The notes under the pieces were generated by a model. It made no database searches, was not told where the DNA came from, and saw nothing but the letters and a program-made list of their open reading frames with translations. DNA of 64,000 nucleotides from Sorex araneus. Its lineage: Eukaryota > Chordata > Mammalia > Eulipotyphla > Soricidae. A program made the position numbers and the translations under genes. Position 1 is the first letter of the stretch. Each line of letters starts with the position of its first letter. Of this stretch, positions 5,734 through 62,770 are shown in pieces. The stretch is from NCBI RefSeq assembly GCF_027595985.1, contig NC_073306.1:104892984-104956983 (forward strand). The letters run 5' to 3'.

Positions 5734-6569
5734 GATGCAAATAGATAGGTTTGGTGTAAACATAAGAGCTAAGGGGTCGCCAACATATTTCTTATGTAGG
5801 GGAAAACTATTTGTAGAAAGAGAAGAATGACATAGTATATTATAAGAGGAACTTCATTCCCTCAGCTTTCCAAGAGTCCTGGAACACTTGTCATTGGTTT
5901 CCTTGAGATACCTAGTGTCCCTCTCTAAAATAAGTTGAAGTTATTTTTTGTAACTTCTGTCCAAATACCAACAAAGTGAGCACAATGAGTTCTAAGTGAA
6001 CTGTTTCAAAAATGGATGACTATTACTTTTTTTGGGTGGCTGTTGGAAGATGGAGGATATGACGTTTGAGATTGTGTTGGAAGGTGTTAGAAACTAAGGT
6101 GACCTTGAAAGCAATTCATTTAATTCATCATAAATCAAATTAATGGTGTTTGATTGCATTGAAGAGAAAAAAATCTCACCGGAAAGCACTCTGTGACCTC
6201 TTAATTAATATTGGCTCATTCACTAATAGTCTGAGGTGAGTTCTAGTTTCATAGTCCATAACCTCAATCAGTCTGTTGAAAAACTTCTCTGGCTTAGTGT
6301 GCAGCTAGTGTTATATTGTTTCTTAAAATATAAATGGGCTTCATACTCTTTTTCCCATCTCCTTGAATTATCTTCTGCATACTTCTGATTCATTTTTCAA
6401 TGTGTCACCGAAATATCTAGATAATTCTTCAGTGTGCTTTATTCACTCTTAAATAGTATAAGAATTCTTTTTCAGACTATACTAAATTTTCTCACTTGGA
6501 AATCATGGTTCTATTGGATAAATTCACCTTTTATGAATTTATTCACAAGGGACAATAATTTTACTTTCT
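5734..6569. other. Low-copy DNA
   Basis: No repeat or gene recognised; no splice-flanked frame of note. Confidence 0.4.
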
Positions 6570-6580
6570 ACTAAGTTCTA

Positions 6581-7118
6581 GTAGAGTCTCTTGCCTGCAC
6601 GCCTGGCTGTCTTCCCTGGGGCTCCTTGGAGGGGATGGGCTCCAGCTTCCCTCCCAACCCCGAGCAGTTCCCAGCGGCCGAAGACCACCGGAACCTAGCT
6701 ACAGCCATGCTCGAGGCCCCTCTCCACATGTTCGGACAGGCCTCATGCATGAAGGTACTGGCAGAGGAACCCAGGTGTGTGTAATCCCATCAATGGCCAA
6801 CATCCAGAGACTTAAAAGCAAGCTCCCAGAAGCGATATCTTGTAGCCTACTTCTCCCTCTGGGAGAAACTGGGAAGCTTCTGAGAGTTTCCTGCCCACAT
6901 GGGACAGCCTCCCAAGCTTCCCGTGGTGTATTCATATGCTAAATCCAGTAACAAGCTGGCTCTCATTCCCCTGACCCTGAGAGAGCCTCCAGTGGGACAT
7001 CGTTAAGAGGGTTGAGTCCAGAGAAACTTCTATGATCTCAGGGAAAGGACAAATGGAGAGGTTACTGAGCCTGCTTGAGAAATGGACGATTAAATGGGAT
7101 TTCATAATCGTGATCGTG
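6581..7118 (+). mobile_element. Composite non-autonomous retroposon of about 538 bp, no poly(A)
   Basis: Second copy at 61969-62502. The 5' two thirds begins TAGAGTCTCTTGCCTGCACG and includes GGGGATGGGCTCCAGCTTCC, CCATGCTCGAGGCCCCTC and GTGTGTAATCCCATCAATGG. The 3' third is the long-form SINE end (CTCATTCCCCTGACCCTGAG ... GATCTCAGGGAAAGGAC ... GGGATTTCATAATCGTGATCGTG). There is no A-run; it stops in a short ATCGTG repeat. Bounded by a TSD, ACTAAGTTCTA, at 6570-6580 and 7119-7129. The short plus and minus frames inside are not shared as conserved proteins between copies. Confidence 0.9.
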
Positions 7119-7129
7119 ACTAAGTTCTA

Positions 7130-22100: not shown

Positions 22101-22113
22101 TGTCCACTTCTTT

Positions 22114-23338
22114 GTTTTTTATAATGTAGGAGCATTGCTATTTATTCAGCCATTGATTAAGCTGATTGAATTGGGCATGAACTCCACATTACTTTTTAAA
22201 ATTTTTTAAAAATTTTATGTTAATTCAAAATGTTTGATTACATTCAATATTCAAACACCAATCCTACCACCATACACCTTCCCACCACCAAATTTGGGAT
22301 GTTTCTATCCCAAACCCCAATCCCTGTCCCAAAACACAACTGAAATAATATATTTCGCATTGTCTGTTATGAAGAACTACTGAATATGCTTACAAAAAAG
22401 TGTTTATATAGGAAACAGTGTGAAGATTGTTCTATTTTGGCAGGAGCCATTAAGACATTTTATAGGATATCACTAACATCTTGCTAAAGTTTGGGTGATG
22501 TCATCTTTGGTGTATATATCTGAAAATATGTATATGTGCATATATATTTCCCTCTATGATTTGTTGCCTACTATCTGAACTCTATCAAATGTGGTGTGGT
22601 AATTATGGGGAATGGGTAGGGAGTGTTTTATGATGTGTCGCGCAGCTGCTTTTGTGGCTGTGCAGTCCAGGAATGTGTTTACTCATATGAGAGGCTCAGC
22701 CCAAACGCTGGGGAGCGGCCTTGAGCGTGGCGGCAGTTGGGTTGTGGAGGTTTTTGGCTGCTAGAGCTGGGTCCCTTGGGGCAGGGAGGGCTCTCATCTG
22801 CCCCCTTTTGGGTGCCCCAGTGAAGACAGCCTGGCACGTGGCCAAGACATTCTGTGGCGCTCTCTTTTGGGAGTTTTAGTTTATAGTCCCTGGGTCTTTG
22901 CCATTGATGAGATTACATGGCACCGGGGGCAGTTTGTGGGTGTGACTGCCAAGTTACTGGAAAACTGGGGATCTTGGGGGAGGAGGCCCAGTCCCAATCC
23001 AAGTGGGTCTAGAGCTCTCATACAGGTTTCGTTCCCACCTACCTCTGCACTACAGGCCCTAACTGCGTCTTTTGATCTCTTTTGAGATTTATGGGTCTCT
23101 GAAATAAAGCCAATAATTGAGTCTATATAGCTAAACCAGAGATGGTTTGTGGGTGTGTCTCCCACATATCTAACTTTTGGACGTTTAATTTCTTGGTAAA
23201 CTTGGCCCCAAGTTATTGGGGTCTGGCCAAAGGCACAGCAGCAATTTTGGGGTATCTGGAAGTCTAAAGTCACCATCAGGCTGCTGATGCACTTGCCCCG
23301 CAGGTACAGGTTGACCTGCTGGCGCCACTATACTCCCC
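22114..23338 (-). mobile_element. Type C composite retroelement, complete, with a probable 3' transduction
   Basis: Flanked by a perfect 13-bp TSD, TGTCCACTTCTTT, at 22101-22113 and 23339-23351, which sets its limits at about 1.2 kb. Read on the minus strand: a 5' part shared with 1-155, a GC-rich middle, an L1-like 3' end (GGTGGTGGGAAGGTGTATGG, GAATATTGAATGTAATCAAA) and an A-rich stretch (about 22194-22216). A further 80 bp containing AATAAA (plus-strand TTTATT at 22141-22146) and a short A-run then precede the TSD. No ORF2; the 131-codon minus frame is not conserved in the other copy. Confidence 0.8.
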
Positions 23339-26153: not shown

Positions 26154-26607
26154 GGTCTGCATCCCCCGAGTTTCTGAAGCCACCCCCAGCCCGCCCTGTG
26201 CACCCCGTCTCCCGAACCGGCTCTGTAACTGCGCACGTCCTTCAGGTACGAGGACCATCCCTCGGCCACGCCCTTCCGTCCCCCCCCTCAACACGAAGAC
26301 ACTGGGGGCGTGGCCTGTGTCTTAGTGGGCATGGTCTCAAAGTGGGCGTGGCCTACTCTCGGAGCTGCGGCCGCTAACGCGACCGCAGTTATTCTTTGCT
26401 CCCTCAGCTCAATCGGTACTGTGTATTTCTTTGAAAATTCACTTTTACGATCTCAAACACTTATGCAAAATAGCCATTAGCTTAGGCTGACACTATAAAA
26501 GCTGTCAGTGAATAAGGGAAGTTTAGCACAATCGGAGCCCCTTCTTCCCACAAGAAGGAAGAGGAATAAATACTTACAAAGTTCCAACTCTATACTTTTG
26601 TAACAAT
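26154..26607 (+). promoter_or_regulatory. L1 5' UTR with GC-rich internal promoter region
   Basis: Starts GGTCTGCATCCCCCGAG right after the TSD, as expected for an intact 5' end. The first 250 bp are CpG-rich in an AT-rich setting and hold two GGGCGTGG boxes (about 26306-26313 and 26344-26351) and a related GGGCATGG between them at roughly 20-bp spacing, plausible Sp/KLF sites. The later half is AT-rich. Promoter role is inferred from L1 biology. Confidence 0.7.
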
Positions 26608-27559
26608 ATGAAGAAGCAGCGAAAATCCCCTCTGAGAAGAGAGGGGGAAGAAAAGATACCAGAAACCTCAACAGGGGCTACTCACATCTACGACCTCTCA
26701 GATAAACAATTCAGAGAGGAAATCTGGAGGAGAGTCGACCTACTCCAAGCAAATATGGAACAGACATCCAATAAATTAAGGGAGGAGATGTATGAAGCGC
26801 TGGAACGGTCCTCCAAGAAAATCAAGGAAGAAATAAGAGCGGAAATTTCAAACCTTCGAACGGAAGTGTCACAAATAAAGGAATCGGTAGATGAAATAAA
26901 AATCTCACTAGATGCCCTCAACAGTAGAATGACTATAGCCGAAGACAGAATCAGCAATCTGGAAGATGAGCTGCAGAAGGCTTATAGACAACAACAAATC
27001 ATGGCCTAAGACCTCAAAATGGCTATAGAGCGAATCAGAGCCCTGGGAGATGACTTCAAGAGGAACAACATAAGAATCATTGGAGTACCAGAACCACGGG
27101 GAAGTAACCCCAATGAAAAAAACACAGTCAAAGACATCATTGCTAAGAAATTCCCAGAGCTGGAGAAGGCAGGCATCCAGATACAAGGAGTACCGAAGAG
27201 TACCAGCAAAAAGAGACCCGAATAAAAAGACCCCAAGGCATATCATAGTCAGAATGACGGATATCATGGATAGAGACACAATTCTGCAAGCAGCAAGGTC
27301 AAGGAAGGAAATCACATACAAAGGAGCACCCCTTAGATTTACGGCCGATCTGTCAGAAGAAACCCTCCGAGCCCGAAGACAATGGTGGGACATAGTGAAA
27401 AAACTCAACGAAATGAATGCCTCACCAAGAATACTTTATCCGGCTAAACTCTCACTCAAACTCGAAGGAACCATACACTATTTCTCGGATAAACAACAGG
27501 TAAGGAACTTCATAGACTCAAAACCAATCTTGAAGGAAGGTCTAAAGGGGCTACTGTAA
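26608..27559 (+). pseudogene. L1 ORF1 (RNA-binding protein), broken by one stop and one frameshift
   Basis: ORF1p coats L1 RNA and is needed for efficient cis retrotransposition. From ATG 26608: basic N-terminus, then a long heptad coiled coil (about residues 35-128). An in-frame TAA at 27007-27009 ends the first part at 133 residues. The same frame reopens at 27019 with the RRM (NIRIIGVPEP, codons 27070 on). Between about 27180 and 27205 the frame shifts by one, and the rest (KRDPNKK.PRHIIVR, then the C-terminal domain ending GLKGLL) lies in the next frame to 27559. Full-length would be about 317 codons, near the usual ORF1p size. Two lesions make it non-coding for full-length protein. Confidence 0.92.
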
Positions 27560-27601
27560 GACAAGGAGGAGCCCCATAAGAACAACAAATCCCAAAGAAA
27601 G

Positions 27602-30600
27602 ATGACACAAAACCCCATCACAATAATCTCTCTCAATGTCAATTGCCTAAATGCACCCATCAAGAGACACAGAGTGGCAAAATGGATCCGGAAATTAAAC
27701 CCAACATTCTGTTGCCTGCAAGAAACACACCTGAACAAACAGAGTAAACATAGACTCAAAGTCAAAGGATGGAAAACAATCCTGCAAGCAAACAACCCCC
27801 TTAAAAAAGCTGGAGTGGCCATCCTGGTATCCGACAACATAAATTTCAGGATGAAAAAGATCAAAAGGGAAAGCGAAGGTCATTTTCTGTTTATCAAGGG
27901 ATATGTACAACAGGAAGAAATCACACTCTTAAACGTATACACTCCTAACGAACGACCGGTTAAATATTTAAAACAACTCCTAACAGACTTCAAAGAGGAC
28001 ATCACTAACAGCACAATTGTAGTCGGAGACTTCAATACGGCCTTATCGCCTCTAGATAGATCCACAAGAACAAAACTCAACAAGGAAACACTGACTCTGA
28101 AAGAAGAAACTGAAGAGAGAGGCCTAATAGACCTATACAGGGCCTTACACCCCAAAAAGAAAGAATACACATTCTTTTCCAGTGCACACGGAACATTTTT
28201 TAAAATAGACCATGTACTGGGCCGCAGAACATACCTCAATAGAATCGGAAAAATAGAAATTGTATCAACCATCTTTTCAGACCATGATGCGCTGAAGATA
28301 GAAGCTAACCACTCACAAATACGGAAAATCAAATCAAACACCTGGAAATTAAACAATTCAATTTTGAACAATGAGTGGGTCAGGAAGGAAATCAAGGAAG
28401 AAATCAAAAGATACTTAGAAACAAATAAGAATGAAGACACGAGCTACCAAAACCTATGGGACGCAGCTAAAGCCGTGTTAAGGGGAAAATTTATAGCTCT
28501 CCAAGCTTTCCTCAGGAAGGAAGAAAGGACCCACATAGATAGCTTGACTTCACGACTCAAGACCTTAGAAAAGGACCAGAAAAAGGAACCCAAACCAGAC
28601 CGAAGGAAAGAAATAATAAAAATTAGAGCAGAAATTAATGACATGGAAACCAAAAAAACAATCCGAAAGATCAATGAAACAAAGAGTTGGTTCTTTGAGA
28701 AAATAAATAAGATTGATAAACCGCTAGCAAGACTCACAAAGAAAGAAAGAGAGAAAACTCTAATAAATCGAATCAGAAATGAAAAGGGGGACATCATAAG
28801 AGAAACCAGTGAGACTCAAAAGATCATTAGAGACTACTTTGAAGGTCTTTACGCCACAAAAAAGGAGAACCTAAAAGAAATGGATGGATTCCTTGATTCC
28901 TACAATCTCCCAACACTGAAGAAAGAAGACCTGGAATACCTGAATAGACCCATCAATGTTAAGGAAATTGAAACTGTAATCAAAAACCTCCCCAAAAACA
29001 AAAGCCCAGGCCCAGATGGTTTCACTGGCGAATTCTTCCAAACATTTAAAGAAGACCTATTGCCTGTTTTCCTCAAACTTTTCCAGGAAGTTGAAAAAAC
29101 AAGAACTCTCCCAAACAGTTTCTATGAAGCACATATCTCCCTAATACCAAAAGCAAACAAAGACATCACTAAGAAAGAAAATTACAGACCAATTTCCCTG
29201 ATGAACACAGATGCGAAGATCCTCAACAAAATACTAGCAAATAGGATCCAACAACTCATCAAAAAGATCATACATCACGACCAAGTGGGATTCATCCCAG
29301 GGATGCAAGGATGGTTTAACATTCGGAAATCAATCAACATAATCCAGCATATCAACAAAAGGAAAGATAAAAACCATATGATCATATCAATAGATGCAGA
29401 GAAAGCATTTGACAAGATCCAACATCCTTTCATGATGAAAACCCTCGCCAAAATGGGGTTTGGAGGAACTTTCCTCAAGATAGTCGAAGCCATCTATCAC
29501 AAGCCTACGGCAAGCATTATCCTCAATGGGGAAAAACTAAGGGCCTTTCCTCTGAGATCAGGCACAAGACAAGGATGCCCACTCTCACCACTCCTCTTCA
29601 ATATAGTACTGGAAGTACTTGCGATAGCTATTAGACAAGAAAAAGAGATTAAGGGCATCCAGATAGGAAAGGAAGAAATCAAACTCTCACTATTTGCAGA
29701 CGACACGATACTATATCTAGAGAAGCCTAAAACCTCTACTAAGAAACTCTTAGAAACAATAGACTTATACAGTAAAGTTGCAGGCTACAAAATCAATACC
29801 CAAAAATCCATGGCCTTCATATATGCAAACAATGAGGCAGAGGAAAGGGACATGAAAAAAGCAATCCCATTCACAATCGTGCCCCAGAAAATCAAGTACC
29901 TCGGAATCAGCTTAACTAAAGAAGTAAAGGACCTCTACAAAGAAAACTATATAACTCTACTCCATGAAATCAAAGAGGACATGAGGAAATGGAAACATAT
30001 ACCCTGCTCGTGGATAGGGAGAATCAATGTTGTCAAAATGGCAATACTCCCTAAAGCATTATACAGATTCAACGCGATCCCTATAAGGATACCCATGACA
30101 TTCTTCAAAGAAATGGATCAAGCAATCCTAAAATTCATATGGAATAACAAACGTCCAAGGATAGCTAAAAAAATTCTTGGGAAAAAGACAATGGGAGGCA
30201 TCACCCTCCCCAACCTCAAGCTTTACTACAAAGCAGTAACAATGAAAACAGCATGGTACTGGAACAAAGGCAGAGCTGTAGACCAATGGAACAGGGTGGA
30301 ATATCCCTACACACAATCTCAAATGTATGATCATCTAATCTTTGATAAGGTAGCAAGAGATGTGAAATGGAGCAAGGAAAGCCTCTTTAACAAATGGTGC
30401 TGGCACAACTGGACAACCACATGCAAAAAAATGGGTTTAGACCTTGACCTGACACCATGCACAAAAGTCAGAACAAAATGGATTAAAGACCTCAACATTA
30501 GACCACAAACCATAAGGTACATTGAAGACAAGGTCGGCGAAACCCTCCACGATATTGAAGATAAAGGTATCTTCAAAGGTGACACGGAACTAAGCAATCT

Positions 30601-31420
30601 AGTAAAAACAGAGATCAACAAATGGGACTACATTAAACTAAAAAGCTTCTGCACCGCAAAAGATACAGTGACCAGAATCCAAAGACTATCCACAGAATGG
30701 GAAAGGATATTTACACAATACCCATCAGATAAGGGGTTGATATCAATGGTATATAAAGCACTGGTTGAACTCTACAAGAAGAAAATATCCAACCCCATCA
30801 AAAAATGGGGCAAAGAAATGAACAGAAACTTTACCAAGGAAGAAATACGAATGGCCAAAAGGCACATGAAAAAGTGCTCTGCATCACTAATCATCAGAGA
30901 GATGCAGATCAAAACAACCATGAGATACCACCTCACACCACAGAGACTAGCACACATCCAAAAGAACAAAAGCAACTGCTGTTGGAGAGGATGTGGGGAG
31001 AAAGGGACCCTTCTTCACTGCTGTTGCGAATGCCGACTGGTTCAGCCCTTCTGGAAAACAATTTGGACGATTCTCAAAAAATTAGATATTGAACTCCCAT
31101 TTGACCCAGCAATACCACTGCTGGGAATATATCCCAGAGAGGCAAAAAAGTATAATCGAAACGACATCTGCACATGTATGTTCATCGCAGCACTGTTTAC
31201 AATAGCCAGAATCTGGAAAAAACCCGAATGCCCCAGAACGGATGACTGGTTGAGGAAACTTTGGTACATCTATACAATGGAATACTATGCAGCTGTTAGA
31301 AAAAAGGAGGTCAAGAATTTTGTAGTTAAGTGGATGGGCATGAAAATTTTCATGCTGAGTGAAATGAGTCAGAAAGAGAGAGACAGACATAGAAAGATTT
31401 CACTCATCTATGGTATATAG
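27602..31420 (+). CDS. L1 ORF2 protein: endonuclease and reverse transcriptase, intact
   Basis: 1272 codons, the normal L1 ORF2p length. It nicks target DNA and reverse transcribes L1 or SINE RNA there (target-primed reverse transcription). Visible parts: apurinic-type endonuclease, residues 1 to about 235, with N12, E41 (CLQETHL), D143 and N145 (GDFN), and S226-D227-H228; a linker with coiled-coil-like charged sequence; reverse transcriptase at about 490-770 with D598 ([11 protein letters not shown]) and the FADD box at 698-701; C-terminal knuckle C1127-X3-C1131-X7-H1139-X4-C1144. All catalytic residues I can place are present. ATG 27602 is the first start and lies 42 bp after ORF1; in L1s ORF2 is usually reached by unusual reinitiation. 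The protein would be enzymatically plausible, but expression is unknown and ORF1 is broken. Confidence 0.96.
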
Positions 31421-36516: not shown

Positions 36517-36793
36517 CTGTATCACTGTATCACTGTCATCCCGTTGTTCATTGATTTGCTCAAGCAGGCGCCAGTAACGTCTCCATTCATCCTAGCCATG
36601 AGATTTTAGCAGCCTCTGCTTACTTGTCCTTCCCAACAGTGCCGTATTGGAGGTTCTTTCAGAGTCGGGGGAATGAGACCAATTATTGATACTGTCTTTG
36701 GCATATTGTATACAACACGGGAAGCTTGCCAGGCTCTGCCATGCGGGAGGGATACACTCGATAGCTTGCTGGGCTCTCTGAGAGGGATGGAAG
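36517..36793 (-). mobile_element. Long-form SINE, third subtype, head missing
   Basis: Tail on the left is (GTATCACT)n, i.e. AGTGATAC repeats on the minus strand, with no poly(A). Body has the extra block shared with 3856-4057 and 53023-53234 (minus strand: CTCATTCCCCCGACTCTGAA, CTAAAATCTCATGGC). The tRNA head is absent on the right. Confidence 0.9.
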
Positions 36794-53022: not shown

Positions 53023-53234
53023 GCATGGACAGCGCCTGGCAAGCTCCCTATGGCGTATTTGATATGCCCAAAACAGTAAGGATAGGTCTCATTCCTCTGA
53101 CCCTGAAAGGGCCTCCAATCGTTGGAAAAGACGAGTATGGAGAGGCTGCTAAAATCTCAGGGCTGGGAGGAATAGAGATATTACTGGTGCCTGCTCGAGT
53201 AATTCGACAAGCAACGGGATGACAGTGATACAGT
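53023..53234 (+). mobile_element. Long-form SINE, third subtype, 5' truncated, TSD present
   Basis: Starts at GCATGGACAGCGCCTGGCAA, passes GGTCTCATTCCTCTGACCCT G and CTAAAATCTCAGGGC, ends GGGATGACAGTGATACAGT without poly(A). TSD of 16 bp with one mismatch, GATACCACTTAAGATC at 53007-53022 and GATACCATTTAAGATC at 53235-53250. The TSD begins with GATAC, which overlaps the tail repeat. Confidence 0.92.
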
Positions 53235-54017: not shown

Positions 54018-54261
54018 GGGGGCTGGAGTGATAGCACAGCGGTTGGGCATTCGCCTTTCACGCGGCTGACCAGAGTTCGATTCCTCTGCCCCTCTCTGAG
54101 AGTCCGGCAAGCTACGGAGAGTATCAAGCCTGCATGGCAAAGCCTGGCAAGCTACCCGTGCATATTGGATATGTCAAACACAGTAACAATAAGTCTCTCA
54201 ATGAGAGATGTTACTGGTGCCCGCTCAAACAAATCGATGAGCAATGGGATGACAGTGACAG
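54018..54261 (+). mobile_element. Long-form SINE, complete, TSD present, no poly(A)
   Basis: GGGGGCTGGAGTGATAGCAC to GGGATGACAGTGACAG, immediately followed by the TSD: AATGATTTGAGA at 54006-54017 and AATAATTTGAGA at 54262-54273. The absence of any A-run between body and TSD is clear here. Confidence 0.93.
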
Positions 54262-61645: not shown

Positions 61646-61968
61646 GGAAAAGAAATCTAATAGATGGGAGATGATATTCACAAATCATACAACTCTCTAG
61701 GGGGTGCTACCTAAACTATATAAAAAAACTCATAAAGCAACAGTAGAATAAGTATCCAATTTAAAAATGAACAGAAAATAAGAATAGACTCAACTAGTGA
61801 AAACATGCAGATATCCAACTGGCACATCAGAAAGAGTATAACTTCTCAGAAGTGAAAACCCAAACCAAAATGGGATGTCGATGTCATCTCTTATTCAAGT
61901 GACTTATCACAAAGACAGAAAATAACAAACATTAAGAATTTAAATTAATATTTATTAAAATACCATAG

Positions 61969-62502
61969 AGTCTCTTGCAGAGTTTCTTGCCCGCATGCCT
62001 GGCTGTCTTCCCCGGGGCCCCTTGGAGGGGATGGGCTCCAGCTTCCCTCACCACCCTGAGCAGAGCTCCCAGAAGCTGAAGACCACGGAACCTAACTACA
62101 GCCATGCTCGAGGCCCTTCTCCACACATTCGAACAGGCCTCATGCATAAAGGTACAGGCAGAGGAACCCAGGTGTGTGTAATCCCATCAAAGGCCAACAT
62201 CCAGAGACTTAAAAGCAAGCTATCTTGTAGCCTACTTCTCCCTCTGGGAGAAACTGGCAAGCTTTTGAGAGTTTCCTGCCCACATGGGACAGCCTTGCAA
62301 GCTTCCCATGGTGTATTCATATGCTAAATCTAGTAACAAGCTGGATCTCATTCCCCTGACCCTGAAAGAGTCTCCAGTGCGACATTGTTGGGAGGGCAGA
62401 GTCGAGAGAGACTTCTAAGATCTCAGGGAAAGGATGAATTGAGAGGTTACTGAGCCCGCTCGAGAAATCGACGATTAACGGGATTTCATGATCGTGATCG
62501 TG
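61969..62502 (+). mobile_element. Composite non-autonomous retroposon, second copy, no poly(A)
   Basis: Collinear with 6581-7118, with a small deletion near 62219. Flanked by a perfect 12-bp TSD, AAAATACCATAG, at 61957-61968 and 62503-62514. Ends GATTTCATGATCGTGATCGT G directly against the TSD. Confidence 0.95.
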
Positions 62503-62514
62503 AAAATACCATAG

Positions 62515-62770
62515 TGATGACTAGAGCAATAGCACAGAGTATAGGGCGTTTGCCTTGCACGTGGCCGACCCAGGTTCAATTCCTCTGTCCCTCTTGGAGA
62601 GCCCGGCAAGTTACTGAGAGTATCCTGCACACATGGCAGAGCCTGGCAAGCTCCTCATGGCATATTTGATGTGCCAAAAACAGTAACAAGTCTCACAATG
62701 GAGATGTTACTGGTGCCTGCTTGAGCAAATTGATGAACAATGGGACACCAGTACTACAGTGCTACAGTAG
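62515..62770 (+). mobile_element. Long-form SINE, directly after the composite element
   Basis: GATGACTAGAGCAATAGCAC to CCAGTACTACAGTGCTACAG. Starts right at the downstream TSD of the composite element. No poly(A). Confidence 0.92.

Follow-up and report, generated by a model that had tools for sequence, protein, structure and literature searches.

A 538-bp retroposon family of Sorex araneus with a promoter-like 5' module, very probably derived from an RTE-clade LINE

Results

Two copies of a composite retroposon in the window

The window, meaning the whole 64,000-nucleotide stretch of Sorex araneus DNA analysed here, contains two collinear copies of one composite retroposon. They are located at 6581..7118 (+; copy 1) and at 61969..62502 (+; copy 2, whose own 5' end is briefly repeated ahead of the usual start). 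Copy 1 is flanked by the TSD ACTAAGTTCTA at 6570..6580 and 7119..7129, and copy 2 by the TSD AAAATACCATAG at 61957..61968 and 62503..62514. Perfect TSDs of 11 and 12 bp and an ATCGTG end had been claimed in a sequence-only reading of this DNA, and re-reading verified them together with the insert ends. The two copies are identical at 478 of 525 aligned bases (91%; K2P 0.096) and have the 3' terminus ATCGTGATCGTG in common.

Within copy 1, the 5' module at 6583..6846 (+) consists of block B followed by block A and shows neither tRNA similarity nor pol III boxes. The TATA-like box TTAAAA lies within block A at 6812..6817 (+); in copy 2, TTAAAA is at 62209. The module is followed by a body at 6847..7045 (+; ends approximate), which matches the 5' UTR of an RTE LINE, and by a 3' end at 7046..7118 (+), which comprises the RTE ORF end and the RTE 3' end with an (ATCGTG)n tail. 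The ORF-deletion junction is near 7045.

When copy 1 was aligned with the SINEs of the window, the match to the long-form SINE body and tail started at about 6847. The 3' third had been described as the long-form SINE end; the SINE-like part is real, but it measures 272 of 538 bp, which is half of the unit. The statement that the 5' part is unrelated to the tRNA head was borne out, and the first 264 bp failed to match that head in the same alignment. A coding unit was also considered and rejected: a frame is open across the 5' halves (127 and 122 codons), with zero Pfam matches at E values up to 1. This frame runs at 6559-6939 and 61959-62324, and its translations are similar between the two copies. 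A short-form SINE is found at 62519-62765, a few bases downstream of the 3' TSD of copy 2.

A high-copy family with a common 5' end

Copy 1 was used as the query against the 2.41-Gb genome, which gave 8,134 first-look candidates, mostly unscored. All 40 scored copies are near full length (match spans of at least about 515 of 538 bases), and a chance resemblance between the two window copies is therefore excluded. Copy 1 itself begins at its base 1 and the other 39 of the 40 scored matches begin at its base 2-5, so the common 5' end expected of such a unit was recovered. The 538-bp repeat is a real, high-copy retroposon family.

Twenty-eight of the 40 scored copies (L001-L008 and L029-L048, L001 being copy 1) were examined together with copy 2, giving 29 loci. 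The median K2P distance from the majority sequence was 4.9%, and 2.8% outside CpG, for the 28 loci; this divergence is biased low because they were chosen as the best matches to copy 1. In 14 of the 29 copies, the flanks share a direct repeat of 9 nt or more beside the 5' end, compared with 5 of 812 mismatched flank pairs. In four further copies (L008, L045, L046, and L048), which have an extra 5' block, a wider, uncontrolled search found a repeat of 9-13 nt on the upstream side of that block. The remaining 11 of 29 lack a flank direct repeat of at least 9 nt.

The tails of the 29 copies carry ATCGTG in 13 cases, ATTCGTG in 9, and neither in 7. AATAAA was found in none of the 29, and a poly(A) tail is absent. 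The genome has 546 occurrences of the strict tail pattern (some places double-counted) and 0 of the reversed control. Neither of two patterns was found in IMG/VR contigs, a collection from which entries for this genome or a close one may have been excluded. No description of the 538-bp unit was found in the open-licence literature, as judged by titles and the starts of abstracts. At L047 (601-1803), two composites lie about 50 bp or less apart, the second of which is interrupted.

The RTE LINE of this genome

An RTE reverse-transcriptase bait gave 49,861 first-look candidates, some of them perhaps from other LINEs. Of these, 130 were scored, and all 130 matched with 44-49% identity over nearly the whole length of the bait. 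Pfam RVT_1 matches one open RTE stretch with an E value of 1.8e-11. By similarity to the bait and to RVT_1, the parent LINE is probably a member of the RTE clade.

The RTE 5' UTR of L076 was also used as a query, and 40 of 40 scored matches, out of 8,207 candidates, were near full length. By eye and non-exhaustively, three of its matches end 372, 376, and 386 bp before a same-strand RTE ORF match, two lie 1,615 and 1,842 bp upstream of a same-strand RTE match, and one further match besides L076 is inverted. The intact RTE 5' end was not reached among the RTE stretches read. The RTE copies L075 and L077 are truncated upstream of the body. In L073 and L076, the RTE 5' UTR and the ORF have opposite orientations, as twin priming would produce. 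In L078 (3-751) and L079 (about 1-690), an antisense RTE ORF piece abuts the sense 5' UTR, and the two joins fall at nearly the same point of block B. Twin-priming 5' inversion was dropped as an account of these two loci because of this arrangement.

The 3' half as an RTE 5' UTR joined to an RTE 3' end

About 190 bp of the composite matches the RTE 5' UTR directly upstream of the ORF, and the last 60 bp or so matches the RTE ORF end and tail. A profile built from the 29 composites matched RTE 5' UTRs with E values of 1.7e-28 (L075), 1.4e-25 (L079), 4.4e-24 (L078), and 2.4e-22 (L077). In all four loci, the body lies immediately upstream of the RTE ORF start MIVCTF. The same profile matched the RTE 3' ends at 8 of 8 loci, with E values from 1.8e-6 to 0.006; the best E value among 280 shuffled sequences, used as the control for body and tail, was 0.2. 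Similarly, the last 60 bp or so of the long-form SINE is 79-86% identical to the RTE 3' end at 8 of 8 loci.

The deletion junction is alike by eye in all 8 aligned sequences (6 long-form and 2 composites), and likewise in L056, a long-form copy that bears a tRNA head. A CAGGGAC match flanks the join on both sides in the RTE (the 5' UTR of L077 and the 3' ends), the pattern that a single deletion at a short repeat would leave. The profiles and the junction together demonstrate, at the level of sequence similarity, that the 3' half of the composite is an RTE 5' UTR joined to an RTE 3' end with the protein gene lost. The earlier picture of an unrelated module placed on a SINE end has to be revised, since the "SINE end" is itself this joined RTE remnant. 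The composite body is 69-74% identical to the RTE and 69-75% identical to the long form. These similarities are about equal, and the immediate parent is therefore not fixed by them.

Long-form and short-form SINEs

The A-less body and tail had been noted to work with different 5' parts, and this was confirmed across 10 long-form loci. Upstream of the body, parts of the module (B, U, or A) are present in 6 of the 10, a tRNA head in 1, and neither in 3. In the window, a long-form body and tail at 36538..36787 (-) has neither a recognised module nor a recognised tRNA head, and another at 53027..53220 (+) is 5'-truncated. The short-form SINE at 54025..54260 (+; ends approximate) consists of a tRNA head, a shortened RTE body, and the tail; we take this tRNA-headed form to be probably the Sor SINE. 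One ORF deletion is probably ancestral to both the 538-bp unit and the tRNA-headed SINE, which probably gained its tRNA head on the same ORF-deleted RTE remnant. The A-less 3' end of the SINEs of this genome is explained because that end is a gutted RTE.

Tail repeats of the RTE and of the composite

By eye, the end of the RTE ORF leads into a tail of the (ACAAGTGAT)n type in 8 copies, six or seven of these being the clearest cases. In the genome, ACAAGTGATACAAGTG comes after one RTE anchor 1,264 times (some places double-counted) and ATCGTGATCGTG comes after it twice; both of the latter places carry the composite signature CTGAGCC. An RTE subfamily with an ATCGTG tail was therefore rejected as a candidate, the exact pattern being limited to these two places. 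This exact-pattern genome search, which covered tails of the ATCGTG form, did not detect that repeat on the RTE itself. This mismatch, 2 occurrences with ATCGTG against 1,264 of the ACAAGTGAT type, weakens this RTE as the present partner of the composite. A tail repeat shared with the partner RTE is a supporting and not a defining feature of bipartite RTE derivatives. The mismatch could be explained by another RTE subfamily or by drift of a short, slippage-prone tail.

Relatives of the 5' module

A profile of the module was made from the two window copies, with block B at profile positions of about 3-173 and block A at about 196-255. It identified a third locus in the window at 22945-22666 (-), with E values of 6e-5 for block A and 1.5e-13 for block B. 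The order there is A then B, the reverse of the composite order, as if the module had been cut from a tandem array. This locus belongs to a poly(A)-tailed retroposon, here called F3, which carries blocks A then B at 22108..23337 (-), with a TATAAA at 22885-22880 (-). A second F3 piece is present in the window at 144-1 (-).

The genome search with F3 gave 12,452 first-look candidates, 40 of which were scored, and internal repeated blocks were seen. F3 is about 1.2-1.6 kb long in the fetched loci with definable limits (sample L009-L028). It begins GGGGGTATGGTGCC, has AATAAA and an A-rich tail at most loci, and contains a U part preceding block A. Flank repeats of about 8-15 nt were recognised at 10 of 14 F3 loci with both ends, by eye and without a control. 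In 12 of 14 F3 loci, block B is preceded at a distance of about 30 nt by TATAAA.

The module profile also gave four matches to RTE 5' UTRs, with E values of 4e-5 (L078), 0.011, 0.012, and 0.15. These are confined to profile positions 22-196, and the best of 280 shuffles reached an E value of 1.5. F3 compared with the RTE at L078 gave an E value of 6e-15. Block A with its TATA-like box was undetected in any RTE stretch read. The idea of a simply unrelated module is not supported: relatives of it occur in the 5' UTR of this RTE, where the likeness is weak, and in F3 with its poly(A) tail.

In the composites, TTAAAA is present in block A in 28 of 29. It lies 30-33 nt before the usual start in all four composites with an extra 5' block, and in L033 a TTAAAA lies 40 nt upstream, in the flank. 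Box A was found in 0 of 29 composites, strict box B in 0 of 29, and a permissive box B pattern in 2 of 29. No tRNA was called in either window copy. A pol III head hidden in the 5' module was rejected on these results. TTTT, a possible pol III stop, is internal to 6 of 29 composites.

The 5' UTR of an L1 was likewise considered and rejected as the source of the module, since no resemblance was seen by eye upstream of the window L1; the window matches listed for the module profile include none upstream of it. This L1 lies at 26527-31417; its ORF2-like frame at 27560-31417 is uninterrupted over 1,286 codons and is preceded by two open frames.

Discussion

Origin and mobilisation of the composite

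The composite is very probably a non-autonomous derivative of an RTE-clade LINE, with a gutted-RTE core and RTE-type mobilisation. Insertion with TSDs, a common 5' start, and the absence of poly(A) were observed among the composites examined. We infer that the unit is bipartite and TATA-driven and is copied in trans by the RTE machinery, the promoter and the trans-mobilisation both being deductions from its structure. Transcription, most likely by pol II, would start about 30 nt downstream of the TATA-like box that an upstream copy of the module carries in its block A. The predicted capped start of the transcript is GCAGAGAGTC, in block B. The RTE endonuclease and reverse transcriptase would then recognise the composite RNA via its RTE-like 3' end, and insertion may proceed by target-primed reverse transcription.

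The module itself is, on balance, better read as a diverged copy of RTE promoter blocks that is common to F3, to judge by the profile matches. A possible account, with less than an even chance, is a chimera of the SVA kind, in which the gutted-RTE core was fused to a foreign promoter from F3 or from a common third source. The likeness of block B to the RTE 5' UTR would then be a later or separate borrowing. This account contests the RTE origin of the module, yet it holds the same gutted-RTE core. It would explain why the module matches F3 (E 1.5e-13) better than the RTE (best E 4e-5), and why F3 has block A with its TATA-like box, which was undetected in the RTE stretches read. However, the RTE 5' UTRs of L078 and L079, which continue into the ORF, have F3-like pieces ahead of the body, as does the inverted L076, and parts of B, U, and A are found upstream of the body in 6 of 10 long-form copies. 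With such pieces in both the RTE 5' UTRs and the long forms, a foreign origin is therefore not needed for block B. A wider proposal seems somewhat unlikely: that one promoter cassette of tandem TATA-type blocks is common to the RTE LINE, to an RTE-tailed non-autonomous family, and to a poly(A)-tailed family of L1 type, with promoter and partner exchanged independently and the ATCGTG family now on an RTE-like partner other than the RTE that left its remnant in it.

The TATA-like box at about -30 could also be the external promoter of an unusual pol III element that is transcribed in the manner of a SINE. Two pol III RNA genes need TATA-like boxes at -31/-24, according to the accessible part of PMC10137851, and the composite is short and apparently non-coding. 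This reading is decidedly unlikely in view of the lack of box A and of strict box B in all 29 composites, the internal TTTT in 6 of them, and the AATAAA and A-rich tail, a pol II hallmark, at most loci of F3, which shares the blocks. A fusion of a SINE with an LTR or solo-LTR fragment as the 5' half is scarcely credible. The A-B order with a TATA about 30 nt before block B did resemble U3-R at the window F3 locus. However, F3 starts with GGGGGTATGGTGCC and has an A-rich tail rather than TG..CA ends, and its flank repeats of about 8-15 nt (10 of 14 loci, by eye, uncontrolled) are not duplications of 4-6 bp. An LTR origin of the module is disfavoured by these F3 ends. The reading preferred here remains the non-autonomous RTE derivative.

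Comparison with known systems

In hagfish, SINE1-1_EBu and SINE2-9/10_EBu consist of an RTE 5' UTR and 3' end with the middle deleted, and the available text of PMC7245038 describes bipartite derivatives, both on their own and beneath small-RNA heads, as common for RTE. Such bipartite derivatives have already been described, and the composite therefore belongs to a known kind. Like the hagfish elements as described there, it is an RTE 5' UTR plus an RTE 3' end with the middle lost. Unlike them, the shrew form without a tRNA head also has a promoter-like module, which is repeated in some copies, and it carries a tail repeat other than that of the RTE identified here. A promoter-like half held in common with a poly(A)-tailed family seems uncommon.

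Bov-A2 and Bov-tA of ruminants depend on RTE, as stated in the accessible part of PMC8620236. The shrew is like the ruminants, so far as that account goes, in having more than one RTE-dependent SINE family in a mammalian genome, on a different RTE. Bov-A2 is not known to have a promoter-like 5' half. SVA has a poly(A) terminus and depends on L1. Unlike SVA, the composite lacks poly(A) and has an RTE-like 3' end. Like SVA-type elements, which are treated as composite retroposons in the portion of PMC13174262 consulted, the composite joins a 5' part with promoter character to a borrowed 3' end. The Sor SINE of shrews is a T-minus SINE in the available text of PMC11240701; on that description, it differs from the composite in having a tRNA head and a shorter body.

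RTE1_Sar is an abundant RTE-clade LINE of Sorex araneus, and horizontal transfer between nematodes and the common shrew has been proposed for it (PMC6542046). The words SINE, UTR, promoter, and non-autonomous are absent from the main text of that paper. RTE1_Sar is a plausible parent of the composite, judged by name and host. Should the RTE prove to be RTE1_Sar, its high-copy derivatives would serve as markers for testing the date of RTE entry into the shrew lineage. The TATA-type blocks in both RTE-tailed and poly(A)-tailed families also provide a case for studying promoter exchange among non-autonomous retroposons.

A minor feature was seen at the 5' junctions of copy 2 (61969-61980), L003, and L004, where short repeats of the element 5' end or of the target are present. 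These look as if the reverse transcriptase had jumped.
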